From Chthoniobacter flavus (GTDB lineage Bacteria; Verrucomicrobiota; Verrucomicrobiia; Chthoniobacterales; JACTMZ01), in NCBI GenBank assembly GCA_945871065.1, contig CAMBUL010000011.1:1-46707 (forward strand): a stretch of DNA of 46,707 nucleotides. The letters are read 5' to 3'. Positions 8,638 to 34,176 of this stretch are shown piece by piece. Below the pieces are notes generated by a model that saw only the letters and a list, made by a program, of their open reading frames with translations, had not been told where the DNA came from and did not search any database. Each line of letters opens with the position of its first letter. Position 1 is the stretch's first letter. Both the position numbers and the translations under genes were made by a program.

Positions 8638-8639
8638 GC

Positions 8640-9146: not shown

Positions 9147-9161
9147 TCCCACCAAAGCCCG

Positions 9162-10427: not shown

Positions 10428-10444
10428 GACCCTCACGCTTCCCC

Positions 10445-11928: not shown

Positions 11929-11929
11929 T

Positions 11930-13246: not shown

Positions 13247-13298
13247 GGCGATTCAATCCCCGTTTGCCACGGCATCCGGCAAAACCGTGAACTGCTCC

Positions 13299-16349: not shown

Positions 16350-19300
16350 ATGAAAAAGTTGCTCGGCAGAATCCAGCGAACAATTGCTTCTCCCCCGACC
16401 ACCTTGGGCAGAGCGGAAACTGTTTTTAGTGTGGTCTGGCGTGCCGATCGTCCGGGGTTGGAGGCAGTTCTTGGGCAACACTCCGAGGAAGCCGCATCGG
16501 AGCTCATCCCGCAGCTGGTAATCAATGGCACATCGCTCCCACCATCTCGCCGACAGCGCAGGCCGGATGACGGCCGCCTGATTTTGGTTTGGGAAGAACT
16601 TCCCACCATGGCACGCGAACAGGAAAAAATCCTCTTCTCCTTCGCTTCCAAAATTGTCAAACCAGCTTCGGCCCGAGTGGGCGCCCCGCGCCCTGGCGAT
16701 GCGGCGATGGAGCCGGTTGCGGGACACTTCGAGGGCTTCGATCACGCAGGCAATATTTGCGGCTGGCTCGACCGTTCAACACGGCATCCCGGAGAGTTTT
16801 CCGTCGTTTGCGGCGATGAGCGATTGCCAGTGCATCCTGAAATCCAACGCCAAGATTTGGCGGAGGCGGGTTTCCCTTCAGGGCGCGGTTTCATTGTGGA
16901 ATTCCGCGAAATCTTACCGCTATTGGGTCCGTTTTTTTCCGGGCGCGCCCTGAGGATCGAAGGAATCTCTGGCGCGCTTGTCAGTCAGCCCCTTTACTGG
17001 CCGGTCCTTCAGCCCGCACGCCGCAATGAGATACTTTGGAACTGGCTCGCGAGATTCTTTGCTCTGAGCTTGGAAAGCAGCACCTTCGATCTGGAGGCCC
17101 TGGAGCTTTTCGACGCAGAGTTTTCCAAGCTTGAACAGGAAGGTCTTGCAGGGCTGCAAGATGAGACGGGAGCCATGCGTTGCGTGCAACTCATGCAGGA
17201 CTTGTGTGGCCAGCAAGTCGGCGGGCAGGCGGACTTCCGGTCCAACCTTGCCAAACTCTGTCAACTCAGCTCGCGATTGGCCCGGTCACACCCCTTGTGG
17301 AAAAACGCGGTGGCGGGCTTTCAAGCGGCCATGATTGCCGAAGATTTCCTCGACACCGTGCGAAGCGTCTGGAAGCAGCAAGCGCTGCTGGAGGCCGAGG
17401 ACGAAAAACCCGTCGCACCGCCCGCCCCCCTCGAAGCGTTATTTCTCGCCCCGGTGCTCCACGCCGGTCGCCTGCACTTTCTTCCTTGGGAAGGCTGGGT
17501 GCGTAATAATTTGCTCAGAACTATTGAACTGGCCACCAATCTCCCGGCCGAGAGAAACGGAAACGAAGATTTGGCCGCCAAACTCTCGGCGGTCGAAGCT
17601 GTTGTCTCTCTTCTTTACAGGGACGAGGAAATTATAGGCGGATTGCAGCGCTTGCGGCGTCAACTCGGGGTTTACAGTGGCCAACCCTCGGCACATGCCC
17701 GCCGCGAGGTCGTCGCCCTCATGAAACAGCGCAAATTTCTGCAAGCTCTCTCCATTGAGAGCCGCATTCCGAGCGAGGAGTCGGTTTCCGGTGCAGTCAA
17801 CGCCTTTGCATCGCAACTTGGTGCGGCGCGCGAACTCGGGCAGACCTTGCCAACTGCGGTCATCCGCGCCTGGAAGGATCGCCTCGGCTCCGGCGTGGAA
17901 CAGGCGGTGACGAACCCCGTATTTCTCGCGGCACTGCACGGTTACCTTGAATTTGCGGGCCAAGTTCTGATGAATCCGGCCACAACGGCAGGGCAACCAA
18001 TCGGCCAAGCGCAGCAGACGCGCCTCGATATCATCGGATCCATCAAGGAGTTACTCTCGTTGGAACCGATCCGCCCTTTAGCCCGCGGGTCGAAAGCCGC
18101 AGGCGAACCGCTCAATATCCTGCTCGTTGGTTCGCGGGACCTGCCTCAAGTCCATCTCTACCGACAAGAACAAAAAGTGGCGGCTTTGCGTAACCTCTCC
18201 ACCCGCACAAGGCCGATAAACGTCGAGCGGGCCGATACTTGGGAAAAGATCAACGATCCCAAGCTGACCCGTTGTTTGGTCGGATCCGACATTCTCGTGG
18301 TCTGTCGGCTGCCGGCAACTCTTTCCGTTTTGCGACTCATCCACGCCGCTCGCCGGGCCGGCGTGCGGGTGATTTACGAAGTCGATGATCTGATTTTCGA
18401 CCACGAAAATTTCCCACCCGCCTACGAGACTTATTCTGGAAGTGTCACCCGGCGAGAGCATCGGCAACTTGCGGAGGACACTCCACTGTGGCTCGAGGCC
18501 ATGCGTTTGGCGGATGAGATCATTGTTTCGACCGCCACGCTAGCCGAACGCGTACGAGTTCTCTTAGGCGACAACCAGCCCGTGCATATCGAACCAAATT
18601 GCCAGCCGGGTCCACTTCGCAGCCGGGGAAGAGTTTCCCGCTATTTGTCGCACCCAACCATCCGCAGGTGGCGGGCCACCGAGCGCATGCGTCTCGTCTA
18701 CGGAACAGGCACCAAAGCGCACAAACAAATCATAAACCAATGGATCCTGCCGGTGCTAGAGGATTTGCTTGAGCGGTATCCTCAGTTAGACATCACCTTG
18801 GTTGGACGACTCAAAGCCATTCCCCACGGCCTTGCCAACCACCCGCGTGTCCAGATCGTTCCCTTCATTGGCTACGACGCATATCTCGACATTCTTTCCT
18901 CCGCAGACCTTACTCTCGCCGCCATCGAGGAGGGTGTGGCCTCGGATGCGAAGAGCGGGCTCAAATGGATGGAAGCCGCCTTTCTCGGCGTTCCGTCGGT
19001 CGTTAGCCCTTCCGCCACTTACCGCGAGTTGCTGGAGGACGGATCGGATGTTCTTTTCGCCGAAACCAAGGAACAGTGGGAAGAACAACTGGGGCGATTG
19101 ATCAGCGACCCGGATCTCCGCACGCGAATTGCCGAGAGGGCACTCCGCAAGGCAACCGCCTCATTTTCCCCAACAACCGCTGAAAATGTGTGGTCCAAGA
19201 TCATCAGGCAAGAAGCGACAAACCCGCAGGAGGCTTGGCCCGCCGGACGCCCGCTGCGACTGCTCTTGGTTAATCTTTATTTCCAACCACAGTCGCAGGG

Positions 19301-20660
19301 AGGCGCCACACGCGTGGTCGAAGACCAGATCCGCAAATTGCTCGATCGCTACCCGGGACGGTACGAGATAACCGTGCTTTGCGCGGACCGGTTTGCTCAC
19401 GATGGAGGCACCGACATTTACTGGCAAGAAAGCGTTCGTGTTGTCCGGTTCAAGACCAGTTCCAAGGAATGGCACTCCTATAGGGACGACGAGAGCAAGA
19501 AATTCATGCAAGATTGGCTCCGCCGGGAGAGCTTCGACGTAGTCCACGTACACGCACTCCAAGTGCTAACCGCGAGCGTGCTCGAGGCGGTGGCAGCAGC
19601 CAGCATTCCTTACATCGTGAGCATCCATGACGCTTGGTGGTTCTCACCCCACCAGTTTCTCACCTCGCCCTCCGGCCAGCCCGTGGACCCCCAGGACTGG
19701 TTGGCCGAGACCGGTATGCGCCCACCCTCCCCAACATCGGGCGGCGAGGTCGTGTCGGTCGCCGCGCAATTGCGGAAACTGGAAAAATTACTCCGTCTTT
19801 TACACCGTAACGCTCAGGAGCAATCGGAGGCCTCCGCCCGAGGAGACATTTCTCAGCGCGGTCAGTTGCAGGCCAAACGGCGTGAGTTAGACGTCCGTCT
19901 CGAAGATTTGATCGCCGATCAGTCCATCCGCATCCGCGTCTATTCGGCTTACGTCAGACAGCGTGACCTCTTAGGTATTCTGCACGGTGCCACCGCACGA
20001 CTGGCCGTGTCGTCTTCATTTGCCCGGCTATGTGCACAAGCAGGAGCGGAAGAGGTCGAAGTCTTGAACAACTCGTGGCAAATTTTTTCCCCCGGAGGTG
20101 TCCGCCCGGAAGCCGCCCCCCTCGAGTGCGCCTTCATAGGCGGGTGGAGCCTGCACAAGGGTGCCGGCATTCTGCTCGAAGCCTGCCAATTGCTCGGTGA
20201 GGCCGACCAGATCCGTTTACGCATCGTCGACCACTCCCTTGCCGGCGATGAATACTGCGCCGTTAAATGGGGCGGCATCGACGTTCGATTCATTGCCCCG
20301 ATTCCGATGACCGGCATGCAGCTGTTCTATTCGTCGATTGATGTCCTTATTGCTCCCTCCATTTGGCCTGAAAGTTTCGGGCTGGTCACTCGCGAAGCCT
20401 TGGCAGCCGGGGTGTGGGTCATCGCCGCGGATTCTGGAGCGCTCGCCGAACCAGTTTTCGATAGCATCAACGGCCAAGTCATTCCCCCTCGCGACGCGCA
20501 GGCGCTGGCCGACGCCATCCGGTGGGCATGCACCCCGGAGGGGCGGAAGGTGCTGCAGGGCTGGCGAGAGGATGCGCTCGCCGGCATTGGCTCGAACAAA
20601 CCCCCGGACAACCTGGAAACACTGCACAGTTTATACAAAAAAGCCGCCGGCATTTCATGA
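16350..20660 (+). CDS. Giant capsule glycosyltransferase with two GT4 modules
   Basis: This 1436-residue protein carries two complete GT-B/GT4 modules. Module one spans about 587-960 (NILLVGSRDLPQVHLYRQEQ, RVIYEVDDLIFD, LVYGTGTKAHKQ, SGLKWMEAAFLGVPSVVS). Module two spans about 964-1430 (LRLLLVNLYFQPQSQGGATRV, IVSIHDAWWFSP, FIGGWSLHKGAGILLEA, PSIWPESFGLVTREALAAGV) with a charged helical insert at about 1130-1200. Residues about 120-200 (GHFEGFDHAGNICGWLDRS) resemble a small beta domain common in polysaccharide glycosyltransferases. Residues 200-580 are helical and unrecognised. It is probably a processive or two-step polymer-building enzyme at the inner membrane face. Its stop overlaps the next start (ATGA). 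Confidence 0.85.
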   Translation: MKKLLGRIQRTIASPPTTLGRAETVFSVVWRADRPGLEAVLGQHSEEAASELIPQLVINGTSLPPSRRQRRPDDGRLILVWEELPTMAREQEKILFSFASKIVKPASARVGAPRPGDAAMEPVAGHFEGFDHAGNICGWLDRSTRHPGEFSVVCGDERLPVHPEIQRQDLAEAGFPSGRGFIVEFREILPLLGPFFSGRALRIEGISGALVSQPLYWPVLQPARRNEILWNWLARFFALSLESSTFDLEALELFDAEFSKLEQEGLAGLQDETGAMRCVQLMQDLCGQQVGGQADFRSNLAKLCQLSSRLARSHPLWKNAVAGFQAAMIAEDFLDTVRSVWKQQALLEAEDEKPVAPPAPLEALFLAPVLHAGRLHFLPWEGWVRNNLLRTIELATNLPAERNGNEDLAAKLSAVEAVVSLLYRDEEIIGGLQRLRRQLGVYSGQPSAHARREVVALMKQRKFLQALSIESRIPSEESVSGAVNAFASQLGAARELGQTLPTAVIRAWKDRLGSGVEQAVTNPVFLAALHGYLEFAGQVLMNPATTAGQPIGQAQQTRLDIIGSIKELLSLEPIRPLARGSKAAGEPLNILLVGSRDLPQVHLYRQEQKVAALRNLSTRTRPINVERADTWEKINDPKLTRCLVGSDILVVCRLPATLSVLRLIHAARRAGVRVIYEVDDLIFDHENFPPAYETYSGSVTRREHRQLAEDTPLWLEAMRLADEIIVSTATLAERVRVLLGDNQPVHIEPNCQPGPLRSRGRVSRYLSHPTIRRWRATERMRLVYGTGTKAHKQIINQWILPVLEDLLERYPQLDITLVGRLKAIPHGLANHPRVQIVPFIGYDAYLDILSSADLTLAAIEEGVASDAKSGLKWMEAAFLGVPSVVSPSATYRELLEDGSDVLFAETKEQWEEQLGRLISDPDLRTRIAERALRKATASFSPTTAENVWSKIIRQEATNPQEAWPAGRPLRLLLVNLYFQPQSQGGATRVVEDQIRKLLDRYPGRYEITVLCADRFAHDGGTDIYWQESVRVVRFKTSSKEWHSYRDDESKKFMQDWLRRESFDVVHVHALQVLTASVLEAVAAASIPYIVSIHDAWWFSPHQFLTSPSGQPVDPQDWLAETGMRPPSPTSGGEVVSVAAQLRKLEKLLRLLHRNAQEQSEASARGDISQRGQLQAKRRELDVRLEDLIADQSIRIRVYSAYVRQRDLLGILHGATARLAVSSSFARLCAQAGAEEVEVLNNSWQIFSPGGVRPEAAPLECAFIGGWSLHKGAGILLEACQLLGEADQIRLRIVDHSLAGDEYCAVKWGGIDVRFIAPIPMTGMQLFYSSIDVLIAPSIWPESFGLVTREALAAGVWVIAADSGALAEPVFDSINGQVIPPRDAQALADAIRWACTPEGRKVLQGWREDALAGIGSNKPPDNLETLHSLYKKAAGIS

Positions 20661-21550
20661 GCCATCGCTTCATTATAGGCATAGGCTCGCAGCGCGCCGG
20701 TTCGACACTGCTCCACCGCCTGATAGGGGACTGCATAGAAGTGTTCATGCATCCGGTCAAAGAGCTCCATTACTTTGACACCCTTTTCGGAAGTCGGCCG
20801 CAAAAAGCGCTCGCGGATTTCTCCCGCCGACAACTTTCCCGCGAAATGGACCGCATTATGGCTGCGAAAGACTATGGCTTCATGAGCCGCCGATATAAAA
20901 GTTTCCTTCGAGCAAACTCAATCCTTGCGACCACGGCGATCAGCGATGTCGACTACCTGGACTTGTTCCGCCCGTGCCTCCGCAAGTACAGCGTCCTCGG
21001 TGAAGTCACGCCGGAATACATGCTCTTCGACGAAGAACAGGTTGCCCGCATGCGCGGAATGGTCGGCGAAGATGCCACCATCATCATGCTTTGTCGCGAC
21101 CCGGTTCAACGCCTGTTTTCCGCCGCCAAACTCTACAACATTTATAATGCCCTACGGATGAACCGCTTGCAATTGGATGCCTGGTTGCGTCGGAATTTGG
21201 CCGAGAAGACGACTTGGATGCTGGCCCAGGACAGCTACAACGATTACGAGCGCGCCATTCGGATCTACCGCTCGGTATTCCCGCGCTTTCTGGCGCTCAG
21301 TTACGAACAGCTCGTTACCGAGCCGGAGTCCGTATTGCCCCTCCTGCGGGAAGCCTGCAACGTCACAATTGACGCGGTTCAGTTCCGTACTGGCGTCGGC
21401 AAAGTTAGCAATCGCCTTGAGGAAGTCGAGCCGCCTGATGCCGAGCTGGTGACGCAAGTGACCGAGCGCTACGCTGCGCAGATTGCCTTTCTTTCCGATT
21501 TTTTCCCCCATTACAAGTCGCGGGCCCTGGCCCCGTGCAGTGACACCTGA
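20657..21550 (+). CDS. PAPS-dependent sulfotransferase
   Basis: The 297-residue protein shows the two PAPS-binding motifs of carbohydrate sulfotransferases: the 5'-phosphosulfate loop IGIGSQRAGSTLLHRLIG near the N-terminus and the 3'-phosphate motif MLCRDPVQRLFSAAKL. HPVKELHYFD after the first motif and LALSYEQLVTEPE near the end are also family-typical. It should transfer sulfate from PAPS to a hydroxyl or amine of the polysaccharide in the cytoplasm before export. The ATG at 20657 overlaps the stop of the double GT4 gene, so sulfation is translationally coupled to chain synthesis. It is distinct in sequence from the two other sulfotransferases in the island. Confidence 0.9.
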   Translation: MSHRFIIGIGSQRAGSTLLHRLIGDCIEVFMHPVKELHYFDTLFGSRPQKALADFSRRQLSREMDRIMAAKDYGFMSRRYKSFLRANSILATTAISDVDYLDLFRPCLRKYSVLGEVTPEYMLFDEEQVARMRGMVGEDATIIMLCRDPVQRLFSAAKLYNIYNALRMNRLQLDAWLRRNLAEKTTWMLAQDSYNDYERAIRIYRSVFPRFLALSYEQLVTEPESVLPLLREACNVTIDAVQFRTGVGKVSNRLEEVEPPDAELVTQVTERYAAQIAFLSDFFPHYKSRALAPCSDT

Positions 21551-21976
21551 GGTGTCGACAAGCAGTTCCGGCGCACGTAACCAAACAGGCATGAAAAGTG
21601 GTTTGCGGAGGGCATTAGCCACCCGGTAGTAGTCTGCCACCGGATTTCCAGCGTGCGCGCTACACCGATCGAGATTGGACAGTCTGAGTTCCCCCAAGGC
21701 AAGCCCGCCACCACGGAACCGGAAGGTCAAATAATTTTTGCTCGCCCCTCGCCGGGCATGTCCGCGACCCGTCTGGCAATGGCACACTGGAGACCGTGCG
21801 TATATCGTCTCTTTTGTCCGCTGCAGCCTCTTTGTCATGACGCAGCCTTGACCTGCCGGGCTGCATGGTCGATTGTTCCGACAGCGATGGTCCTTAAAAG
21901 GCTGCTGTCTCAAGGGCTAAATGCATTAATTTAGACGCGACCAAGCGGCGATAAGCAATTGCTGGAAGCCAACCTT
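21551..21976. other. Noncoding gap inside the capsule island
   Basis: The 426 bp contain several short frames on both strands with no conserved pattern. CCCGGTAGT at 21622-21630 resembles ops with two mismatches. A minus-strand frame reading NPVADYYRVANALRKPLF could be a relic of a lost gene but is unsupported. Confidence 0.45.
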
Positions 21977-22816
21977 ATGGACGGAATATGCACCTTGGCA
22001 AACGACCGCATGTCTCCATTTTTGGAGGCATTTTTACCAAGCGTCCGCGCTCACATGCCTGATTTGCCAGTCCGCATAATCCCTTTCGACGACAACATCG
22101 AGAAAACAAAGGCTCTGGCCAAATCTCATCGTGCACAAGTTGTAGAGCCAGACCAACGCTGGGACGAGTTGGGAGCCAAACTTTTCGGAGACGAGGATTA
22201 TCGACGGGGAGTGCCTGCGTGGCGCTATCTGCGCAAACTGAACGCCTTCCAAACGGATCTGGACAGGTTTCTTTTTCTCGATGTCAACTGCCTCGTTTTA
22301 AACGACCTGCGGCCTCTGTGGACGGCTTGCATGAGTGACGCCCAGGATATTGTTTTTGCGATCAGATCACGACTCGACAGGACAATCAGCAAGCCCGATG
22401 TCCGTTCCGTGCTGGAAATACTCTCCCCCCGTTTGGGCGGGGCCTTTAACGCATGCTGCTTCATGAGCAGGCGGGGAACAATAGAACCGGAGACAGCACT
22501 GGCCATCGGCAGGAACAAAAATCTTCGGCTTCTCTTCGGTCGTGCCCCCGAGCAGGCGTTCATGGCTTGGTACATCGCAGTCACCGGCTTGAATGCGTTT
22601 TCCATGGCAGAAATTAGCCGGAGTCTGCGCAGAATCATCGGCGGAGCACGCTTCTCGATTGAGAAGACCGACGGCGGCCTTCATCGCTTTACCGAGGGTC
22701 CGTGGAAAAATAATCCGATCTACCTCCTCAAATGGGGCGGCCAGGACGTATCCGCCGTGCATGGCGGCAAGAACGCGGATCTCTTCCATCATCACCGGCA
22801 AATGGCTCTTTCCTAG
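21977..22816 (+). CDS. GT-A-like capsule protein, paralogue 1 (MDGIxTxAND family)
   Basis: The 279-residue protein starts MDGICTLANDRM and contains IIPFDDNIEKT, GDEDYRRGVPAWRYLRKLNAF, FLFLDVNCLVLNDL and RAPEQAFMAWY. The pattern of an N-terminal nucleotide-binding strand, then a hydrophobic strand ending in D-x-D before 'LVL', resembles GT-A enzymes such as GT8, and a cyanobacterial family of unknown function starting MxGIYTxAND that I recall only approximately. Here the third position is Asn (Asp102-Val-Asn104), not Asp. It is clearly paralogous to 23810-24637. The ATG at 21977 matches the paralogue's start; a TTG 18 bp upstream is less likely. The function is unproven: a glycosyltransferase or an inactive relative. 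Confidence 0.65.
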   Translation: MDGICTLANDRMSPFLEAFLPSVRAHMPDLPVRIIPFDDNIEKTKALAKSHRAQVVEPDQRWDELGAKLFGDEDYRRGVPAWRYLRKLNAFQTDLDRFLFLDVNCLVLNDLRPLWTACMSDAQDIVFAIRSRLDRTISKPDVRSVLEILSPRLGGAFNACCFMSRRGTIEPETALAIGRNKNLRLLFGRAPEQAFMAWYIAVTGLNAFSMAEISRSLRRIIGGARFSIEKTDGGLHRFTEGPWKNNPIYLLKWGGQDVSAVHGGKNADLFHHHRQMALS

Positions 22817-22840
22817 AATGGACTTGTTCAGCGAAGCAAG

Positions 22841-22849
22841 TCGGTAGCC
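22841..22849 (+). promoter_or_regulatory. Degenerate ops-like element before the second sulfotransferase
   Basis: GTCGGTAGC differs from the ops core at one base and lies 91 bp before the ATG at 22941, on the coding strand, in a 124-bp gap. Supported only by similarity and placement. Confidence 0.3.
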
Positions 22850-22940
22850 ATAACAACAAACGGATTAACAAGTCTCCTCTAGTGATGGTAAAAATCCGCC
22901 GCTATTTAAACTTTGGCGTCAACAAACAAAGCGTCCGGAA

Positions 22941-23798
22941 ATGATCGACAAGCTCTTCCTGTCTGTTGGTGCAATGAAGTCGGGGACCACTTGGCTTTAC
23001 GATAAAGTACGCCATCATCCAGGCATTCATTTCTCCCCACAAAAAGAGGTGCATTTTTTCGCCTTTCATTATGGGCACAGCAACGCCTTAGCCGGCAAAA
23101 AGCGCGACAGGCGGGCCAAGCAGGCCATGCGTCTCGCGCGTGGCGAAAAAGCGGCAACGAAGACCCTCCAAAGGCTACGTCGGTGGCGAGCGAGCTACCT
23201 CAGCGATCCCGTCGACTTCAACTGGTTTGAGACCATTATGGATGCGCCCCAAGCCAATGGGCGCTTTCTAGCCGACTTCTCGAACCTGAACTGCTTTCTG
23301 ACTCCGGACAACTGGCGTGACCTGAGAGACAAGCATGCGCGGGAAATCCGTGTGATTTATATTCTCCGCGATCCGCTCCCACGAATTTGGTCGCACTTCA
23401 AATACCATCTTCAGTTTAGCAAACATCCCGCGGCTCGGGAACCCGAGAAAGACTTTGATCTCTTTCGAACAGTTTTAGCCAAGGGCTGGTTTTGGCGAAA
23501 CGCTTGCTACTCCACAACGGTCCAATCATTGCGGGCCGGCTTAGGCACCGGCAATTTTGGCCTTTTTTACTTTGAGGACATGATAGCGAGCCCGGACCAG
23601 TTTCTCGCGGAACTCTTCCGCTTCCTTGAAATAGAACCCGTGGTCTATCATGGCGACCTGCACGGTCGAAAAAATATAAGCACGCCTGCTTCCATCCCGC
23701 CAGACTGGGCCGACTACACGCGTGCCAGACTCCACGAAGAAATGTTGTCGATGCGAGCGGCCGGAATTTGGCATGAGAAGTGGTCCTCGCTCGCTTAG
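22941..23798 (+). CDS. PAPS-dependent sulfotransferase, heparan-sulfate-transferase-like
   Basis: The 285-residue protein has VGAMKSGTTWLYDKV, the canonical 5'-phosphosulfate loop with Lys-Ser-Gly-Thr-Thr, and IYILRDPLPRIWSHFKYHL, the 3'-phosphate-binding motif. The stretch FSPQKEVHFFAFHYG after the loop matches the family of heparan-sulfate-like sulfotransferases, where a Glu/His near this point aids catalysis. It should sulfate the capsule chain. It sits between the two MDGIxTxAND paralogues, with only 11 bp to the second, so these three are probably one functional block. The start ATG at 22941 is preceded by CGTCCGGAA, a weak ribosome-binding site. Confidence 0.9.
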   Translation: MIDKLFLSVGAMKSGTTWLYDKVRHHPGIHFSPQKEVHFFAFHYGHSNALAGKKRDRRAKQAMRLARGEKAATKTLQRLRRWRASYLSDPVDFNWFETIMDAPQANGRFLADFSNLNCFLTPDNWRDLRDKHAREIRVIYILRDPLPRIWSHFKYHLQFSKHPAAREPEKDFDLFRTVLAKGWFWRNACYSTTVQSLRAGLGTGNFGLFYFEDMIASPDQFLAELFRFLEIEPVVYHGDLHGRKNISTPASIPPDWADYTRARLHEEMLSMRAAGIWHEKWSSLA

Positions 23799-23809
23799 CA
23801 CCCTGACTA

Positions 23810-24637
23810 ATGGATGGCATCTACACAATGGCCAACGACAGAATGGCTTCATTTTTGGAGTCCTTCCTGCGGAGCCTAAGACGTGTTATGCCATCCGTGC
23901 CGATCGGGGTTATTCCGTTCGACGATTCCGTGCAGAAAACAGAGCAATTGGCAGCCACTTACGGGGCATCACTGGTCCCACCGGATCTAACTTGGGACCT
24001 CATCGGCAAGAATATCTACGGCGACGAAGACTACCGTCCTGGCGTGCCGGCCTACCGGTATTACAGAAAATTCAATGCATTCACGGGTCCGTTCCAGACG
24101 TTTTGTTTCATGGATGTTAACACGCTTGTTCTCAGCCCCCTCAACGAGCTGGGAAAGAGATTAGACCAAAACCATGATATATTGTTTCTGATGCGTTCGT
24201 CCCCAAAGCGTTCAATCCGACGCGATGTCGCGCGGTGCACCATGCAAATTCTCTCCCCCGGTATACTTAGTGGCTACAACGCCGGTTTCTTTCTGAGCCG
24301 TCGGAATACCGTCGACCCCTTGCACGCGGCGACACTCGGCCGGAATAAAAATCTGCGCCGCATTTTCGGCATGGCCCCCGAACAGGCATTCTTTGCTTGG
24401 TATGCTACGATTTGCGGTCTCCGTCACGGCCTCATTGGGGAGTTGGATCCGAGTCTCCAAAACGTATCTTCGGGTAAAAAGTTCCTTGTCGAAAAAAGCG
24501 GCGACGGGCGCTTTTATTTTCTGGAGGGTCCGTCGCAGGGGCGGCAGGCTTATTTCCTTAAATGGACAGGGCAAGACGCAGCAGAGATGAAGGGTGGCAA
24601 GAATGCAAACCTGTTGGATCTCTGCTTTTCCCCTTAA
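23810..24637 (+). CDS. GT-A-like capsule protein, paralogue 2 (MDGIxTxAND family)
   Basis: The 275-residue protein matches 21977-22816 along its whole length: MDGIYTMANDRM, VIPFDDSVQKT, GDEDYRPGVPAYRYYRKFNAF, FCFMDVNTLVLSPL, GRNKNLRRIFGMAPEQAFFAWY and YFLKWTGQDAAEMKGGKNANL. The putative metal site again reads Asp-Val-Asn (102-104). FNAGFF-like sequence (YNAGFFLSRRN) corresponds to the acceptor-side segment of GT8-like enzymes. Tandem duplication around the sulfotransferase gene is the simplest origin. Its stop overlaps the next start by one base (TAATG). It is probably a sugar transferase acting on the same chain at a different position; this is inference. Confidence 0.65.
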   Translation: MDGIYTMANDRMASFLESFLRSLRRVMPSVPIGVIPFDDSVQKTEQLAATYGASLVPPDLTWDLIGKNIYGDEDYRPGVPAYRYYRKFNAFTGPFQTFCFMDVNTLVLSPLNELGKRLDQNHDILFLMRSSPKRSIRRDVARCTMQILSPGILSGYNAGFFLSRRNTVDPLHAATLGRNKNLRRIFGMAPEQAFFAWYATICGLRHGLIGELDPSLQNVSSGKKFLVEKSGDGRFYFLEGPSQGRQAYFLKWTGQDAAEMKGGKNANLLDLCFSP

Positions 24638-26088
24638 TGCTAATGGACAAAACCACAATTCAAACAACCACGGTTAATCCTCGCCACATTGGTGAACAAC
24701 AATTTTCCGAATTTCTCCGCCTTACTGCTTTTCCTACCCTCTTGGAGGAACTTAAAGGACAGGCGCTTGAAACCATTGGTTTTTTGACCAAACATGCGAC
24801 GCGTGCTATCGAATATCCTTGGGCCGCCCACCAACTCGAATCGCGCGGAGTGCGCACGGCGGTTGATGTGGGTGCTGGAGTCTCGCCGCTACCTTTGCGT
24901 TTGGCCAGTCGGGGAATCAAAGTCACAACCGTTGACTATAGCCGTAATGTGCGATCCTTGAAAGATCGTGAAAAGTGGACCGAGTGGGGATTCTTGGATT
25001 ACTCCCTCCTTGATCCTTCGATAAGCTCCTATAATAAGCCTCTTTCTAAAGTGGACCTCGAGGCCGGTTCTCTGGATGCATTTTACTGCATTAGCGTGAT
25101 TGAGCACACTCCACGGTCGCTACGCATCGAAATGCTCGAAACGGCGGCACAGCTTGTCAGGGCAGGAGGCTGGGGAGTGGTCACCTTGGACCTCGTTCCC
25201 CGCACCCGGCGGCTCCGCAATCGTGATCGAGGTCGCAAAGTCGAGGACGACAAAATTCATGGCACGGTTGACGATTTTGTCGATGAAGCGGCGATGGCAG
25301 GCTGGAAGCTAGAAACCACCGAAATCGCAAAGCAGATTCCTGGTGCCGTGACGGATGTGGCGATGCTTGTATTTCACAGGACCGCAGACCCCGCCCCAAC
25401 TGCGGAGGCACGCCGCCACGTTGTTGCGAACGGCGACTCGGCAAGTCTGCAAGAACGGTTCTCCAAAATCTATCGGCGCGGAGGCTGGTCCGGTGGCAAA
25501 GCGGGTTCCGCTTCGGGAGCGGGTTCCAGTTTGGAATACACGAAAAACCTCCGGCAGAATCTTGGGGCACTGCTCGAAGAACTCCGGGTCTTCACTTTTC
25601 TTGACGCTCCGTGCGGTGACTTTGCCTGGTTCAAAGAGGTTGAGGTCCCAGAAGGGATGGTTTACTTAGGCATGGATGTGGTGCGTGACCTGATCCGTGC
25701 CAATCAGTCAAAATTCGCCTCCCGCCACCGCGTTTTCTTTGCCGGCGACATCACAGCCGACCCCCTCCCGAGTGCCGACCTCATGATGTGCCGCGATTGT
25801 TTATTTCATCTTTCGGACGACGATTGTTTTGCGTTTCTCCAAAACTTTATTGCCAGCGACATTGACGCCCTTTTGCTCACTTGTCACCGAAACACGGCGA
25901 ACAACGACCTCCCCCCGGGGAAGGGATTCCGACAAATAAACTTCCGCTTGCCTCCCTTCTCCTTTCCGGAACCGCAAAAAGCTATCGAGGACTACGTCCA
26001 AGGTTTCCCCGCTCGCGACGTCTGTTTATGGCAGGCGGAGGAGCTCCGAGCTGCACTAGCCTCGCGAAAAAGTGGGGCCGCAACGTGA
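24637..26088 (+). CDS. Tandem SAM-dependent methyltransferase (two domains)
   Basis: The 483-residue protein contains two class I methyltransferase folds. The first has its SAM motif at about 70-95 (VDVGAGVSPLPLRLASRGIK) with VTTVDYS as the acidic strand and FYCISVIEHTP as a catalytic-region strand. The second has FLDAPCGDFAWFKEVEVPEG at about 318, YLGMDVVRDLI for the acidic strand and LMMCRDCLFHLSDDD. A Ser/Gly-rich linker (GGWSGGKAGSASGAGSS) joins them. It should methylate the polysaccharide or its terminus. Each half resembles stand-alone methyltransferases of other gene clusters, so this is a fusion. The ATG at 24637 overlaps the preceding stop; an ATG at 24643 is the alternative. Confidence 0.85.
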   Translation: MLMDKTTIQTTTVNPRHIGEQQFSEFLRLTAFPTLLEELKGQALETIGFLTKHATRAIEYPWAAHQLESRGVRTAVDVGAGVSPLPLRLASRGIKVTTVDYSRNVRSLKDREKWTEWGFLDYSLLDPSISSYNKPLSKVDLEAGSLDAFYCISVIEHTPRSLRIEMLETAAQLVRAGGWGVVTLDLVPRTRRLRNRDRGRKVEDDKIHGTVDDFVDEAAMAGWKLETTEIAKQIPGAVTDVAMLVFHRTADPAPTAEARRHVVANGDSASLQERFSKIYRRGGWSGGKAGSASGAGSSLEYTKNLRQNLGALLEELRVFTFLDAPCGDFAWFKEVEVPEGMVYLGMDVVRDLIRANQSKFASRHRVFFAGDITADPLPSADLMMCRDCLFHLSDDDCFAFLQNFIASDIDALLLTCHRNTANNDLPPGKGFRQINFRLPPFSFPEPQKAIEDYVQGFPARDVCLWQAEELRAALASRKSGAAT

Positions 26089-26459
26089 AGGACCTCTTTT
26101 TTACGGGAAAGCCCGGCACTCACTGCAGTCCAAACGAGGCGGTTTACTCTTTCTTGCATGCGACTCTGGTTTGTTTCCGGTTCTTCTCGAATGAACTGTG
26201 CCTGACTCAAGCGCCCAGTGCTTACGTCGGCACCTTTAGTCACTGTGGTTTTCGCGCCTTGTGAGGGCAGTTATGGTAATTAACGCGGTACGTATCTCGA
26301 AATTTGACCGACGCGAAGCGCAATTGCCTATACTTGTTCCAAAAATAGTGGGTACCGAGTTAAACCGGGACGACCAGCATTGATGCTGAGGCTAGGAAAT
26401 CCTTTAGTCACCCTTTTCTACCCCTATCCCTGCAGCACACTCCAGGAGGGGAAACTCCG
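26089..26459. other. Noncoding gap inside the capsule island
   Basis: The 371 bp hold no convincing gene. The right half looks regulatory: a promoter candidate at 26304-26334 and a strong Shine-Dalgarno (CAGGAGGGG, 26442-26450) before the ATG at 26460. Confidence 0.5.
26304..26334 (+). promoter_or_regulatory. Promoter candidate for the third capsule operon
   Basis: TTGACC (26304-26309) and TATACT (26329-26334) are good -35 and -10 matches but with a 19-bp spacer, longer than usual. They would start a transcript about 120 nt before the Stf0-like gene. Confidence 0.4.
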
Positions 26460-27311
26460 ATGCCCAGTTGTCGTCAGTTTATCGCCATAACGCCCCGCTG
26501 CGGGAGCACATGGTGGTGCGATCTGCTTGCTCACGCGGGCTTAGGTCGCCCGGCGGAATTTCTCAACGGTGATGGCCTGTGGTGCAAATCACGTCCCCCC
26601 AATACTCCACTTATCTCCTGGGCTGAACTGCACCAAGGCATGGCATGTTCGTCCGGCACGGAGCAATACGACCTCAAAGCAAGCTGGTTCCAATTCATGC
26701 CATTGCTCGACCCGCCGCTGGAGACAACTCTGGCAACGGAGGGTTTTCCAACCACCATATGGAGTTACCTGACGCGTCGTGACCTGCCGGCCCAGGCTCT
26801 CTCACTGTACCTTATGCGGAGAGTTGGCTCGGCTCACTCGCGCAAGGGCCAGGCCAAGCCCGTGTTTGATGCAACTTGGTTTCATCCCTCTCCGGCAAAT
26901 CATGAGGCACTGATGTGCTGGTTGCTGCACATCGTCCAGCAGGAGTATGGTTGGGAAGCTTTTTTCCTGCGTCACAGCATCAAGCCTTGGCGCTACATTT
27001 ATGAAGATATCGCACAGCACCCGATCCTCAGTCTTCGCCGGTATTTACGACATGCCGATCTCCGGGGAGTCCGGAGGGCGGAGCTCACATTAAGCCCCGC
27101 GGTCTGCGCTCGTCGTGCCACGAGATGCTCGAGGTTTGTCAAACGAGATTACCCCACAACCGCTTCGGGGGACTTGCTGGCGAGCTTCAAACATAGGTTT
27201 GCCCGACAGCTTTCGACTATCGACGAGCTGCGCGGGAAAGAGGCGGCTGCCTCACTCATGAAAATCTGCGCGATGAGCCGGTTAGACCGCAGTGAGATGA
27301 AAGGGCTTTAA
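26460..27311 (+). CDS. Stf0-like sulfotransferase
   Basis: The 283-residue protein begins with IAITPRCGSTWWCDLLAHAGLGRPAEFLN, the PAPS loop and following segment of the Stf0 family (the trehalose-2-sulfotransferase of mycobacteria is the model). SYLTRRDLPAQALSLYLMRR matches the Stf0 3'-phosphate region, and EAFFLRHSIKPWRYIYEDI matches its WxxYF...I.P..YE segment. Stf0 enzymes sulfate sugars. It starts with the best ribosome-binding site of the island (AGGAGGGG, about 9 nt before the ATG). It is the first gene of the block that leads into kpsC. It belongs to a different sulfotransferase subfamily from those at 20657 and 22941. Confidence 0.88.
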   Translation: MPSCRQFIAITPRCGSTWWCDLLAHAGLGRPAEFLNGDGLWCKSRPPNTPLISWAELHQGMACSSGTEQYDLKASWFQFMPLLDPPLETTLATEGFPTTIWSYLTRRDLPAQALSLYLMRRVGSAHSRKGQAKPVFDATWFHPSPANHEALMCWLLHIVQQEYGWEAFFLRHSIKPWRYIYEDIAQHPILSLRRYLRHADLRGVRRAELTLSPAVCARRATRCSRFVKRDYPTTASGDLLASFKHRFARQLSTIDELRGKEAAASLMKICAMSRLDRSEMKGL

Positions 27312-27384
27312 GCACAGTCACCTTTTGCTCGCGTCCCTGACATGCGGAACAGCCGCCTCCAAATAAGTCCCTCACCTACTGCCC

Positions 27385-28383
27385 GTGACTCAAACTCCGC
27401 ACAATTCGGCCCTAGTTCCGCCCGGGCACTCCCGCGCTGGCTACAACCATGCTTTTGTCCTTGCACCATCGCCATCTCCGACGCTCGAGTATTATTTTTC
27501 GCATGTCGCAGACAAAGTGCCGTCTGGAAACATCGAAACTTGCTACGCATCCCGACCCTGCGTGAAACGTCCGAAACTCCAACCCGGAACCTGGGTCGTA
27601 ATATTCAGGCATGCGCACCCGTCGTGGCTCCGCTTCATTCTTTCCCGAAGAGAGGAGCTATCACGCGTTACCTGGTTCCTCGATGATGACATTCCTGCAA
27701 TGCTTTGGCAGAGATCTTTGCCTACTGTGTACGTTTGGAAATCGTATGTGCGATACCTGCACGTTAAGGTCCTTCTGGCAGGAAGGGGAACGGACTATGC
27801 TTTCTCGACAGAGGAACTGGCTTCGCGCTTTCCCAATATCCCTCGCGAGGTATGGCCGCCTCGGAGGGTGGACCCGCCTGCGCGGGAGCTTCCATTGCTC
27901 TATTTTTACCATGCAACCTCGTCGCACCATGCCGAACTGGCGTGGCTTGCCCCAATAGTGGGAGAGGTCCAGCGCCGTGTTCCCGAAGCATGGTTTGAAC
28001 TGTTTGCGGACCGCACGGGAAGGGAAATTTTCCGTTCGGTTCCGCGGACCCGTTGCATTCACCCCATGGTCTGGGCGGACTTTTTGCGCTACACATCGAC
28101 TTTCAAGGCGGACGTGGGGCTTGCGCCACTCCTCGATACGGCTTTGAACCGGGCCCGCGCGCCTGTCAAGTTTTTCGATATCGCCCGCACCGGAGCTGCA
28201 GGCATCTTTTCCGAAAGCCAAACTTTTAAAGGCACCGTGCGGGATGGTGTCAACGGGCTCCTGCTGCCCAACGAGCCTGAGCGCTGGGTTGAGGCAATTA
28301 TTCGTTTGCTGCAATCCCCCGCAGAACGACTCAGCCTTGCCACCCAAGCAAGCCGTGATTGCGGGACAGCTTCTGCAAAATGA
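27385..28383 (+). CDS. GT-B family glycosyltransferase
   Basis: The 332-residue protein has a GT-B look: an N-terminal half ending in VTWFLDDDIPAML and a C-terminal half with LPLLYFYHATSSHHAELAWL, RCIHPMVWADFLRYTSTFKADVGLAPLLDTALNRARAPVKFFDIARTG and VRDGVNGLLLPNEPERWVEAI, which correspond to the donor-binding region of GT1/GT4 enzymes. It is probably a capsule sugar transferase acting near the Kdo-linker, given that its stop overlaps the kpsC start (ATGA). It starts with GTG at 27385; no ATG precedes the conserved part. The sugar is unknown. Confidence 0.75.
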   Translation: MTQTPHNSALVPPGHSRAGYNHAFVLAPSPSPTLEYYFSHVADKVPSGNIETCYASRPCVKRPKLQPGTWVVIFRHAHPSWLRFILSRREELSRVTWFLDDDIPAMLWQRSLPTVYVWKSYVRYLHVKVLLAGRGTDYAFSTEELASRFPNIPREVWPPRRVDPPARELPLLYFYHATSSHHAELAWLAPIVGEVQRRVPEAWFELFADRTGREIFRSVPRTRCIHPMVWADFLRYTSTFKADVGLAPLLDTALNRARAPVKFFDIARTGAAGIFSESQTFKGTVRDGVNGLLLPNEPERWVEAIIRLLQSPAERLSLATQASRDCGTASAK

Positions 28384-30437
28384 ACCGCTGGACCGACGTC
28401 TTGCCGGAGCGCTTCTTTCTCGGCTCACCGGGTGCGGTTCGTCAGCGCGGACATGCCCGACGCTTGGGGGAACTATTAGCGCCGTCCCGCATTACGGCCG
28501 ACCCAACAAAGGCACAAGCCGTCATCGCTTGGGGTCTCAAACCGAGTTCCGAGAAGGCGGCCGAAGCGGCAGCCCGACACGGGCTGCCGCTCTGGCGGGC
28601 AGAGGACGCCTTCCTCCGCTCCGTTTGCCCGCGGCAGTCAGACCCTGCGCTTGGTATGGTTTTTGACGACCTCGGCATCTACTATGACGCTGACCATGAA
28701 TCGCGGCTGGAGCGGCTGATTTTCCAAACTTCGGGCTCGGCGGCCAATGAGGAACGGGCCGCCAATCTGGTCCGTCTGTGGCGGAAGCACCGGGTTTCCA
28801 AATACAACCACGCGCGGGAGTTTTCTGGCCAACTCCCAGAAAACTACGTTCTGGTCGTCGATCAGACACTGGGAGATCTCTCCATTCGTCACGGCCGTGG
28901 GGACCCGTCTGTTTTCCACCGCATGCTCGAAGCTGCGCTTAAGGAGAATCCGGACGACCACATTGTGCTCAAAGTCCACCCTTTGGCGGCCAAAGGGACT
29001 AAGCCGGGACACTTCAACCTAGGAATGGTCGGCCGGGAACGGCGTATATACCTCATCTCAGAGGATACTCATTTGGTGCGCTGTATCGAGCAGGCCAAAA
29101 AAGTTTACACTGTCACTTCGCAAGCGGGCTTCGAGGCTCTTCTATGGGGCAAAGCTGTTCGCACCTTCGGCATGCCTTTCTACGCAGGTTGGGGATTGAC
29201 CGAGGACGCGATTGCTGCCCCCAGCCGGAGACGGCGTTGCCCCCTTGGACGATTGGTGCAAGCAGCTCTGGTCGATTATGCGCGCTATGTGAACCCCGAA
29301 ACCGGCCAGCAGTGCGAGCCGGAAGAAATCATCGAGTACCTCGGCGTTCAGCGGGAGATTATGGAGCGATACCCGGCGTATCTGGCTGCGCCCAGCTTGT
29401 CTCTCGCCAAGCGTGCCGCCGTAAGACGCTTTTTTCCTTGCAGCCAGGTCAACTTCAAAAAAAGCGCACTCCATGCAAAAAATACCGAAGCGGTCTTGGT
29501 TTGGGGGAGATCGCGCTCGCCCCACCATAGCTGCGGTAAACCCGTCATCCGACTGGAAGACGGCTTTATTCGCTCCGCGGGCTTAGGGTCCGCTTTCACA
29601 CCCGCTGCATCGTGGGTAGCGGATAGAACGGGAATCTACTTTGATGCTTCTCGGCCTTCCGACCTCGAGAGCATCCTCCAGACGGCAGTTTTCACCCCGG
29701 AGTTGCGGTCCAGGGCCAGGTCTTTAACCGAAGCGATAATCAGCGCTAGATTGACCAAATATAATGTCGGCTCGGACGGCTGGACTATACCGGACGGCGT
29801 CGGACGACTCATCCTTGTGCCCGGCCAAGTGGAGGATGATGCCTCGGTGGTTTGGGGATCTCCCCAGATCAGAACGAACATTGCGCTGCTCCGAGCCGTA
29901 CGCGAGCGGAACCCGGATGCCTACCTGCTCTACAAGCCTCACCCGGATGTCATCGCTGGCTCACGCTACGGAGGGGATGGTGCCTGGCTAGACTGGGCCG
30001 ACAGCATAGCTGACCGTTGGGTGTCATTAGATTCTTTGTTTCCGATGGTGCACGAGGTTCACACCATGACATCCCTCGCTGGGTTTGAAGCATTGTTGCG
30101 GGGCAAGTCCGTTACCGTCCACGGCATGCCTTTTTATGCTGGATGGGGGCTGACAAACGATATACTTGGGTCGCCTGGAAGGCGGGACCGGCTCTTGGAC
30201 CTTGAGGAGTTGGTTGCCGGTGCTCTCATCCTTTATCCGCTTTATCTCAGCGCAGTGACAGCACGCCCGACGACGCCTGAACGGGTCGTGCAGGAAATAG
30301 CGGAAGGACTTCGTCTCGGAGCCGCGGGCATATTAGAAACCCTGCTCGCACAATTCAAAAAAACCACCACTCGTTGGTCTGCTCCCTCTGAGAAGACAGG
30401 AGTGGGATCACTGCCTGCGAGGAACTTGCTGAGCTGA
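28380..30437 (+). CDS. kpsC: Dual-domain capsule Kdo transferase KpsC
   Basis: The 685-residue protein has the two-module architecture of KpsC (E. coli about 675), which builds the poly-Kdo linker on lyso-phosphatidylglycerol with two transferase activities of families GT99 and GT107. Both modules show the paired motifs: AEDAFLRSV and LEDGFIRSAGLGS; DLGIYYDA and RTGIYFDA; TSQAGFEALLWGKAV and TSLAGFEALLRGKSV; each followed by GMPFYAGWGLT. The ATG at 28380 overlaps the upstream glycosyltransferase stop. The C-terminus overlaps the 3' end of kpsS on the opposite strand by 30 bp. It is the best evidence that the product is a lipid-anchored, group 2-type polysaccharide. Confidence 0.96.
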   Translation: MNRWTDVLPERFFLGSPGAVRQRGHARRLGELLAPSRITADPTKAQAVIAWGLKPSSEKAAEAAARHGLPLWRAEDAFLRSVCPRQSDPALGMVFDDLGIYYDADHESRLERLIFQTSGSAANEERAANLVRLWRKHRVSKYNHAREFSGQLPENYVLVVDQTLGDLSIRHGRGDPSVFHRMLEAALKENPDDHIVLKVHPLAAKGTKPGHFNLGMVGRERRIYLISEDTHLVRCIEQAKKVYTVTSQAGFEALLWGKAVRTFGMPFYAGWGLTEDAIAAPSRRRRCPLGRLVQAALVDYARYVNPETGQQCEPEEIIEYLGVQREIMERYPAYLAAPSLSLAKRAAVRRFFPCSQVNFKKSALHAKNTEAVLVWGRSRSPHHSCGKPVIRLEDGFIRSAGLGSAFTPAASWVADRTGIYFDASRPSDLESILQTAVFTPELRSRARSLTEAIISARLTKYNVGSDGWTIPDGVGRLILVPGQVEDDASVVWGSPQIRTNIALLRAVRERNPDAYLLYKPHPDVIAGSRYGGDGAWLDWADSIADRWVSLDSLFPMVHEVHTMTSLAGFEALLRGKSVTVHGMPFYAGWGLTNDILGSPGRRDRLLDLEELVAGALILYPLYLSAVTARPTTPERVVQEIAEGLRLGAAGILETLLAQFKKTTTRWSAPSEKTGVGSLPARNLLS

Positions 30438-31685
30438 CGCCCGTTTTTCGAGCAGGCTAACGATCGAAGGAACGGCAAGACTGATTCCTTTGTCCGAGTA
30501 ATAAGACCCTCGGATAAGGCACCGACTGAACAGAACATCGCAGAAGTCACGATGCACACGCGGGTCAGGTGCCGTGGGATTACGCCAAAACTCGTCAAGA
30601 GATACCTGGGAGGCTAGTCCTGGGAAATTGTAAATGGCGCGCCCGAGTGCTTTGACCGGGCATCCATGGTCAAAAGCCGAGGTGGCCACGGTGCTGTTAA
30701 TGGTAACCAAGCCGCGGGTTTTTGCGAGGAGAGTGGGCAAATGGCCACCGTCGATAAAAAGAACCCGACTCGCTAAGCCGTGGTGGGCGGCAAGACGGGC
30801 GGTCTGGCCGCCGCGGGGCACTAGATCGTTGTCAAGAGGGTGGCACTTGACGACTAAACTCATTGGAGTCGGGGCGTAGCGCGCAAAGGACGCGAATACC
30901 TCCCCCAGAAACTCCTCAATGTCGAGGAAGTCCGAATGCTTCACGACTTGCGCGTCGCTATCCAGTTGCAGGGGCACAAAAAAGAAAGGCGTTCCCGAAG
31001 CAAGAAAGAACCCCAACCTTCTCAAATGCCGACGCTTCTCGCCGAGCGCGTGCCGCCTCAGGATGCGCCTGGACCAACCGAATAGCTCACGCATCGGATG
31101 ATAGGGGCGGTGGGAGCGGTAGTGCGGATGCAACCAAGGCATGGAAAGATTGGCGGCATGGTTCGAGACATCCCAAGCCGCACGCCTGACCATGGAAATG
31201 GGCACTGGATCGACCGAGCGGCAGGACACTGGGTCGGCGGATGCCGCAGCAGCGAGAGCCTCAGCAGATCTAGGCAGCGGTGAATTAGCGTTGGCCCCTC
31301 CGAAATCTAGAGACAGACAGTATGGGCGAAGATAACCCTCCTCAAAAACGTGTATGCGCAGGCCCAAATTCAGCGCCTCTTGGCAGGCCAGACCATGCAT
31401 GGGCCGCACGTCGGAAAAAAGCACGAGGTCTGTGATATTTTCGACCGCGAGAATTTCCCGCAGGAAGCCGGGCCACTCGTCATATCGACCACGGTAATTA
31501 ACTGCATCCGGCCGTCTCCAAAATAGACGGTCGCCGGCGCAAAAATTTACCCGCACACAGCGGTGGCCACGAGCATCAAGCTCGTCGGCAAGCCGCGCAA
31601 ATAAGGGCGAAGCAACACCTTGCAGGAAGAGAAAGGTCAGACCAGATCCTAAAAACGTGTCGTCGCGTTTTACGTCAGCGCGCAT
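30408..31685 (-). CDS. kpsS: Capsule Kdo transferase KpsS
   Basis: The 425-residue protein belongs to the KpsS family that adds the first beta-Kdo to the lyso-phosphatidylglycerol anchor before KpsC extends it. It shows the FLQGVASPLFARLADELDARGH start with VNFCAGDRLFW, VLFSDVRPMHGLACQEA, HVFEEGYLRPYCLSLD, SLVVKCHPLDNDL and INSTVATSAFDHGCPVKALG, all typical of capsule synthesis KpsS/LipB. It is on the minus strand, convergent with kpsC, whereas the two usually lie side by side. Its start overlaps the end of the LtaS-like gene by 16 bp, so the pair are one operon. Confidence 0.93.
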   Translation of the reverse strand: MRADVKRDDTFLGSGLTFLFLQGVASPLFARLADELDARGHRCVRVNFCAGDRLFWRRPDAVNYRGRYDEWPGFLREILAVENITDLVLFSDVRPMHGLACQEALNLGLRIHVFEEGYLRPYCLSLDFGGANANSPLPRSAEALAAAASADPVSCRSVDPVPISMVRRAAWDVSNHAANLSMPWLHPHYRSHRPYHPMRELFGWSRRILRRHALGEKRRHLRRLGFFLASGTPFFFVPLQLDSDAQVVKHSDFLDIEEFLGEVFASFARYAPTPMSLVVKCHPLDNDLVPRGGQTARLAAHHGLASRVLFIDGGHLPTLLAKTRGLVTINSTVATSAFDHGCPVKALGRAIYNFPGLASQVSLDEFWRNPTAPDPRVHRDFCDVLFSRCLIRGSYYSDKGISLAVPSIVSLLEKRASAQQVPRRQ

Positions 31686-33196: not shown

Positions 33197-33607
33197 AAAG
33201 TTTTGGCCAATTTAACCCAGTATGTCTTAAAGCATTCCGAGGAAACGAAGCATTTTGGATGTCATTCGGAGTTCTTTTGTTCCGAAAACGCTACCTCTTG
33301 GCTATTTCGACGGAAATCCCCCCAAAAAACACACACCACTGAGAATAGGAATTTGCATCTCAGCCGTTGGAATAGAGCGATGACGTTGAAGTATGGACAC
33401 CCCGTCTCGAGCCCAGCGCGACCTTGGGCGAATGTTGAGGTGACCGTCACTACGGCAGAACCGATCGCGCCGGTTTTCCAGTTCACTGTCGAAATCATCG
33501 AGCCGAGTGTCGGAGAGCGACGATGGTTGCGGTCCTCTGGCCGGACAATTCTCCGCGCAAGAGGAATCTGACCTCCCCTCGTTTACGGCCAGCCGGCCAC
33601 TACAAAT
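33197..33607. other. Intergenic region right of the capsule island
   Basis: The 411 bp hold no supported gene; a plus-strand frame at 33203-33571 and a minus-strand frame at 33262-33498 have no conserved features. It should contain the promoter for the LtaS-like/kpsS operon on the minus strand, but no clear boxes were found. The left half is noticeably A/T-rich. Confidence 0.45.
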
Positions 33608-33640
33608 AAAAACGCCGCCCCGTGGAGGGCGGCGTTTTTA
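33608..33640 (-). terminator. Bidirectional terminator after the LEA-like lipoprotein gene
   Basis: AAAACGCCGCCC and GGGCGGCGTTTT form a perfect 12-bp stem around the loop CGTGGA, with T-runs on either strand. It follows the minus-strand gene at 33661-34026 by about 20 bp. Confidence 0.93.
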
Positions 33641-33660
33641 TGAATGATTGGTTGGATGGA

Positions 33661-34026
33661 TTACTCGGCAGCTTTTTGCAGGTCCTGCCCGACGGTTTCA
33701 ACGGCTTCGCCCGTGGCTTTGGCGGCGTCTTTGGTGCCATCCCACATGCCTCCGGTTACGTCCTTCACGCCCGAGGCAGTGTCCTGCACGGCGCCCCAAG
33801 TTCCTTCGGTCAACGTTTGGGCACCTTCGCCGACGGCTTTGCCGGTTGCCTTGGTCGCATCCCATGCGCCCTCGGCCACTGCCTGGGTACCGTCGCCCAC
33901 AGCTTGGGTGGTGGACTCAACAGCATCACCGGTTTTTTCGACGGCCTGTTGGACGTCTTGCTTGGTTTGATCACAAGCGGCCAGACCAAACGCGGTCGCC
34001 GCCACAATAAGGAAGTATGGTTTCAT
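33661..34026 (-). CDS. LEA-like repetitive lipoprotein
   Basis: The 121-residue product begins MKPYFLIVAATAFGLAACD, a signal peptide with the lipobox LAAC. The mature part is one long amphipathic helix-type repeat: DGTQAVAEGAWDATKATGKA, EGAQTLTEGTWGAVQDTASG, then GGMWDGTKDAAKATGEA, ending ETVGQDLQKAAE. Repeats of about 11 residues with Ala, Lys/Asp, Thr and Gly resemble late-embryogenesis-abundant (LEA group 3/4) and apolipoprotein-like proteins, linked to desiccation or envelope stress. The ATG at 34026 puts the signal peptide at the N-terminus; the open frame continues 15 codons upstream. It has its own terminator. The stress role is inferred. Confidence 0.75.
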   Translation of the reverse strand: MKPYFLIVAATAFGLAACDQTKQDVQQAVEKTGDAVESTTQAVGDGTQAVAEGAWDATKATGKAVGEGAQTLTEGTWGAVQDTASGVKDVTGGMWDGTKDAAKATGEAVETVGQDLQKAAE

Positions 34027-34126
34027 AGCACTTCCAAAGGTGAAGAGCCCCAGCTCTGGGCGCAAACACATTTTCGAAAAATCGCGGGGACAGACCGCTA
34101 AATACAGAGGTCATCAGTCTGCAACC

Positions 34127-34156
34127 TTGACAGCCCTTGCCCGCACTGCTTGTTTT
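34127..34156 (+). promoter_or_regulatory. Promoter candidate for tRNA-Asn
   Basis: A consensus -35 box TTGACA (34127-34132) lies 50 bp before the tRNA. The -10 region (TGTTTT at 34151-34156, 18-bp spacer) is weak. Confidence 0.4.
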
Positions 34157-34176
34157 GCTCTGTCATCGCGGCCAAG

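Follow-up and report, generated by a model that had tools for sequence, protein, structure and literature searches.

Two GT8-like proteins with a changed metal site in a capsule-type locus of Chthoniobacter flavus

Glycosyltransferases (GTs) of the GT-A fold are usually recognised by an Asp-x-Asp (DxD) motif, and the relatives of family GT8 by DxD together with a C-terminal histidine. What, then, is the role of two proteins that resemble GT8 enzymes in fold and carry neither the complete motif nor the histidine? This question is raised by a 46,707-nucleotide stretch of Chthoniobacter flavus DNA (assembly GCA_945871065.1, contig CAMBUL010000011.1), referred to below in its full length as the window, in which the paralogous genes P1 and P2 flank a sulfotransferase gene, S2, within a capsule-type locus. 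We lean towards the view that P1 and P2 are active, metal-independent GT8-like glycosyltransferases with an LgtC/glycogenin fold that belong to a sulfated-capsule gene cluster. The features on which the argument turns are the following.

21977–22816, plus strand: P1, GT8-like GT-A protein of 279 amino acids with D102-V-N104, E192-Q193 and K252-W-G-G255 (AlphaFold2 model, LgtC and glycogenin as best folds)
22280–22288, plus strand: codons of D102-V103-N104 in P1, where DxD would stand (phmmer aligns DVN with DID of LgtC)
22730–22732, plus strand: codon of K252 in P1, where the C-terminal metal-ligand histidine would stand (His in 145/145 homologous rows)
22941–23798, plus strand: S2, sulfotransferase of 285 amino acids between P1 and P2 (PF13469 44.9 bits and PF00685 40.9 bits; 54% identical homologue in the congener G010)
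23810–24637, plus strand: P2, paralogue of P1, 275 amino acids with D102-V-N104, E191-Q192 and K251 (AlphaFold2 model, LgtC best)
24113–24121, plus strand: P2 codons for D102-V103-N104 (sequence and alignment)
24560–24562, plus strand: codon of K251 in P2, in place of the C-terminal histidine (sequence and alignment)

The paralogous pair and its fold

Both reading frames are open over these intervals. P1 and P2 align end to end with 129 of 269 residues identical (48%; BLASTP E 4e-92 in a single comparison) and share the motifs MDGIxTxANDRM, GDEDYRxGVPA and APEQAF, while S2 lies above the curated cut-offs of both Pfam families. The original prediction of two end-to-end paralogues around a sulfotransferase, each reading Asp-Val-Asn in place of DxD, is thereby borne out. 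A sequencing slip is unlikely to account for Asn104, because both genes write it as AAC despite the divergence of their other codons, and the aligned homologues have Asp; with two genes of different codons in agreement, an assembly or sequencing error was set aside. Judged by codon position, the two genes are 56% (first), 70% (second) and 39% (third) identical. Since the second position is the most alike and the third the least, both genes look held by selection at the protein level, and a recent duplication was set aside on the same figures.

AlphaFold2 models built from 62-row alignments reached a mean predicted local distance difference test score (pLDDT) of 91.8 and a predicted template modelling score (pTM) of 0.91 for P1, and of 90.9 and 0.90 for P2. 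With the P1 model, Foldseek ranked LgtC first (E 1.7e-9), and VIA-align returned glycogenin at Z 18.1 (root-mean-square deviation (rmsd) 3.1 over 221 aligned residues) and LgtC at Z 17.6 (rmsd 3.5, 235 aligned). The P2 model gave the same values for LgtC (Z 17.6, rmsd 3.5, 235 aligned). As far as predicted structures can tell, a GT-A fold of the GT8 type is secure. The GT-A-like assignment had been coupled to a proposed structural comparison with GT8, and absence of the fold was named as the outcome that would speak against it; the comparison found the fold.

Sequence comparisons are more distant. An alignment of P1 with LgtC by phmmer places DVN over DID (E 0.00096). The Pfam GT8 cut-off (PF01501, 24.3 bits) is missed by P1 (11.6 bits), with no match for P2; two relatives likewise stay below it (22.6 and 16.3 bits), and PF01501 was absent at E 1e-10 across 38 relatives. 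The best sequence family is NF045582 (Npun_R2821/Npun_R2822), which covers about residues 2–174 and scores 63.8 and 61.9 bits against a curated whole-protein cut-off of 250 bits. By these scores, P1 and P2 are formal members of neither NF045582 nor the Pfam GT8 family. A profile of the 62-row family alignment found no match in the PDB at E 0.01, and a two-row profile matched the N-terminal part of LgtC alone (E 0.031). A profile comparison with WaaO/WaaJ (91.5% probability) spans DxD and DQ and ends before the histidine. Because the profile reached the N-terminal part of LgtC only, the C-terminal histidine was placed by its HxxG/HWxG motif and not by direct alignment.

An altered metal site

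A one-genome-per-species scan (73 loci) supplied homologues, as did genomes from the order, class and phylum to which the window belongs. Thirteen of 153 open reading frame (ORF) hits were dropped, eight as copies from the window itself or a duplicate locus and five as shorter than 250 amino acids. Cyanobacteria and the phylum of the window contribute 145 homologous rows in all (140 aligned and five read separately); two rows containing X were removed before a 138-row conservation table was made. Many cyanobacterial rows are close kin, and 60 representatives are left at under 72% identity.

The second Asp of DxD is present in 139 of the 140 aligned rows (one is unreadable) and the C-terminal His in 140/140, and the five relatives read separately have both (5/5 each). 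In P1 and P2 these residues are Asn and Lys (K252/K251), and none of the 145 homologous rows carries Asn in place of the Asp or Lys in place of the His. The original prediction had named, as a further refuting outcome, homologues that always have Asn and show transferase activity in a known family; this did not occur, since the homologues have Asp. Around the lysine, P1 reads LKWGG and P2 LKWTG, where relatives have IHWAG or LHYIG. This LKWxG/IHWxG site matches HYCGPAKPW in LgtC and HYIGPTKPW in WaaO from E. coli; since the flanking residues agree with the LgtC/WaaO motif, the histidine column is not an accident of alignment. In LgtC this histidine is described as coordinating the metal (eLife study of GT-A enzymes, PMC7185993). 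On the aligned residues, P1 and P2 are thus both without two metal ligands, altered in the identical way.

The original prediction had offered a constrained, altered metal site or a non-transferase role. Because the C-terminal His ligand has changed as well, the altered site appears more strongly supported than that prediction could know; a non-transferase role seems to us the less likely of the two. As to constraint, that both copies have Asn104 is, taken alone, weak evidence, because at 48% identity two given residues are both shared about 23% of the time. More weight may be given to the Asn/Lys retention in combination with the non-metal residues kept in both proteins, namely N9, D10, S22, P36, R86, F98, D102, Q193 and G255.

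In the tree, P1 and P2 are sisters (100/100). They sit next to rows from the phylum of the window, away from the cyanobacterial ones, and each has gathered about 0.9 changes per column since the split. Most simply, the substitutions at the metal site would have arisen once, before the duplication, and then lasted in both copies. Close relatives with DVN and Lys were found neither in the one-genome-per-species scan (by record title, 72 cyanobacterial loci and one of Gracilibacteria) nor in 57 relatives and 387 phylum, 213 order and 384 class genomes, samples that overlap. Two scans of viral contigs and a search of phages returned no relatives of P1 or P2, and plasmids no DVN/Lys relative, with one weak match in Methylosinus. 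A phage origin was rejected, there being no phage match (best PHROGs E 0.089, family unknown). The genome holds no copy of the family beyond P1 and P2.

Three observations concern the wider family. In Nostoc sp. 106C (6603–10917) four members stand in a row, one of them on the opposite strand and with DLD where DAD or DTD is usual. The record titled Gracilibacteria (L038) contains a cyanobacterial-type pair, and the tree groups its copy with cyanobacterial rows, a placement that points to mis-binning. The second member of a cyanobacterial pair (L003:9007–9945) lies above the cut-off that Pfam sets for Mannosyl_trans3 (PF11051, 25.8 bits), a hint that this family and that group are connected.

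How could such proteins work? In LgtC-like enzymes, the metal bound by DxD and the C-terminal His neutralises the diphosphate of uridine diphosphate (UDP). In P1 and P2, exchanging Asp for Asn would remove one negative charge and exchanging His for Lys would add a positive one in the same pocket, which would thereby become more positive by two units, as many as the absent Mn2+ carries. We propose that the side chains keep the donor diphosphate in place and stabilise UDP as it leaves, all without metal, and that the lysine compensates for the charge of the diphosphate; K252 and K251 are placed at the metal-ligand position by alignment, not by a ligand-bound model. P1 and P2 probably add a sugar or sugars specific to the capsule of this strain, which the neighbouring sulfotransferases and methyltransferase would then decorate.

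The chief rival, though an unlikely one in our estimate, holds that P1 and P2 are pseudo-glycosyltransferases that have lost catalysis and serve some other capsule enzyme as scaffold, chaperone or glycan-binding partner, for which COSMC and T-synthase provide a precedent (as presented in PMC7185993). It draws on findings that also count against our main reading. Besides both metal ligands, N197 (Asn in 138/138 other rows) has become Ala in P1 and P2, D128 (Asp in 133/138) Ala or Leu, G160 is Cys in P1 and R274 is absent from P2, and these departures from family-conserved residues could reflect a loss of catalysis. The stem leading to the pair is very long (3.92 changes per column) and drew a long-branch warning from the tree program. 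Moreover, all the substitutions may go back to a single event before duplication, in which case P1 and P2 are not independent evidence. Against a dead enzyme speak the family-conserved non-metal residues N9, D10, R86, D102 and Q193, kept in both proteins, and the nature of the second exchange, which put a cationic residue in place of His in both copies instead of letting the position drift. A catalytic partner of the same family was not found either, the genome having just these two copies.

It is less probable still that P1 and P2 are transferases that depend on metal as before, with a site weakened or remodelled around D102, Asn104 and water. The first Asp is kept, Asn can still bind metal, and GT-A enzymes with an altered or missing C-terminal His can use water or another residue (an account given in PMC7185993). 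That two ligands changed together argues in the other direction, as does the charge of the residue now replacing His, a cation, which should repel a metal ion. On balance we retain the reading of P1 and P2 as metal-independent transferases.

The capsule locus and the sulfotransferase link

The surroundings of the pair fit a sulfated capsule. Further features are given here.

8881–34251, no strand assigned: capsule-type locus with an SLBB export protein, an ATP-binding cassette (ABC) transporter pair, large glycosyltransferases, two Capsule_synth proteins and a sulfatase-domain protein (gene order shared with G010 outside a variable centre)
20660–21550, plus strand: S1, upstream sulfotransferase; the S2 homologue is directly next to it in G010 (PF13469 46.2 bits; G010 synteny)
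24637–26088, plus strand: protein with two methyltransferase domains (PF08241 in two stretches); an in-frame ATG of its gene shares bases with the stop codon of P2 (TAATG)
26460–27311, plus strand: downstream Stf0-like sulfotransferase (PF09037 36.6 bits)

The locus contains the domains of a Kps-type (transporter-dependent) capsule: PF05159 twice (253.9 and 217.2 bits; the KpsC/KpsS-type Capsule_synth proteins), PF01061, PF00005 and PF02563, the ABC pair consisting of an ABC-2 membrane protein and an ATPase. Because the genome encodes an adenosine 5'-phosphosulfate (APS) kinase, the sulfate donor 3'-phosphoadenosine 5'-phosphosulfate (PAPS) can be expected. Sulfated capsules have been described in other bacteria. 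A gene cluster for a sulfated polymer is reported from Pontiella (PMC7356697).

The corresponding locus of G010 is collinear, with 84% identity over 8881–15707, 74% over 16731–21261 and 82% over 27897–34251. There, only 17 bp lie between S1 and the S2 homologue, after which come unrelated genes, including two for FkbM-type methyltransferases. A genome search of G010 found no relative of P1 or P2, and tblastn of both against two G010 stretches gave nothing except a 42-residue match to P2 (E 0.003). Nothing in G010 corresponds to the position of P1, and that of P2 lies in the variable centre.

The centre of the locus (21550–27900 in the window, L092/L093 in G010) is swapped between the congeners between flanks that are 74–84% identical. 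The G+C content at 21–27 kb is 0.53–0.56 compared with 0.56–0.63 elsewhere in the window, a drop that agrees with an exchange of this central part. Close to where the locus begins (8120–8470), a 168-bp unit occurs in 2.1 tandem copies with 87% matches, and related repeats lie at the matching place in G010. The sulfatase-domain protein (PF00884; 31670–33196, minus strand) adjoins a Capsule_synth gene, in a locus with three sulfotransferases, and is also present in G010. A 1436-residue protein encoded at 16350–20660 has two GT4-type glycosyltransferase regions.

Whether P1, S2 and P2 form a dedicated three-gene unit that adds and then sulfates one sugar, as the original prediction proposed, can be judged from the same comparison. 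Only 11 bp separate the S2 stop from the P2 start. In G010, by contrast, S2 stands beside S1 without P1 or P2; among 210 order genomes S2 occurs in two, the window's and G010, and the paralogues in one of these only. We therefore regard a dedicated unit as very improbable, and S2 presumably acts on something made by both strains. The search for the arrangement elsewhere uncovered a looser link. Of the 73 loci, one (L073) had no ORF match, and 72 contained a readable family member, with an adjacent same-strand paralogue in 60. Sulfotransferase ORFs, nine in total, occur in 6/72 loci, always on the downstream side of the pair and no more than 2 kb away; six of the nine start within 1 kb, as against about 0.66 expected if they were evenly spread over the 906 kb of flanks, and all six of those checked passed in Pfam. 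These genes lend the unit some support, although in two of the loci (L033 and L061) the nearest neighbour is on the opposite strand. The six genomes are rich in sulfotransferase genes, with 7–21 PF13469 matches each (none in L003, the seventh genome searched), and for this reason the association, which recurs but is loose and not universal in cyanobacteria, is suggestive only. P1 and P2 also help in interpreting capsule loci with several sulfotransferases in little-studied bacteria.

Comparison with known systems

Like P1 and P2, the NF045582 relatives occur as paralogous pairs, and some of the cyanobacterial ones share the MDGICTLAND start. P1 and P2 score far under 250 bits, the relatives found have DxD and His where P1 and P2 have DVN and Lys, and the cyanobacterial pairs are mostly adjacent, whereas P1 and P2 are split by a sulfotransferase. 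A literature search on Npun_R2821, Npun_R2822 and Npun_R2823 found nothing. With LgtC, glycogenin and WaaO/WaaJ of GT8, the GT-A fold is common over the whole chain, and the DxD position and the FNAG-like and EQ/DQ elements align. The differences are DVN for DxD, Lys for the C-terminal His, a score below the Pfam cut-off and, on inspection, the absence of KPW, which the relatives inspected also lack. In the GT8 clade the KPW lysine contacts the donor phosphate.

Loss of an acidic DxD ligand, as seen in P1 and P2, is a trait of metal-independent GT-A enzymes. BoGT6a of GT6 is reported to be metal-independent with NXN, and its Lys231 near the C terminus to interact with UDP (PMC3961637). It resembles P1 and P2 in the exchange of Asp for Asn, and it uses a C-terminal lysine at the UDP diphosphate, a part that K252 and K251 may also play; it differs in family, in that both Asp are Asn, and in that Lys231 is also conserved in metal-dependent GT6 enzymes, whereas the lysine of P1 and P2 replaces a metal ligand. 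LtpM shows the same DxN pattern and is described as active without cations, with both motif residues required (PMC6393602), but this injected Legionella effector glucosyltransferase belongs to another GT-A branch and is not a capsule enzyme. In GT14 (C2GnT-L), basic side chains are reported in place of the metal (PMC7185993). Among open-licence PMC papers we found no metal-independent GT8 enzyme, which is not proof of absence. We tentatively suggest that P1 and P2 represent a metal-independent branch of the GT8 fold in which Asn and Lys electrostatically replace Mn2+, fixed before duplication, retained in both copies and separate in origin from GT6, GT14 and LtpM in that a metal ligand was turned into a cation. 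A natural pair with both ligands changed in step, beside relatives that retain the two ligands in all readable rows collected, offers a clean test of metal replacement by two side-chain changes. If active, P1 and P2 would caution against dismissing DxN proteins as dead and would extend the short list of metal-independent GT-A enzymes by one with a GT8 fold.

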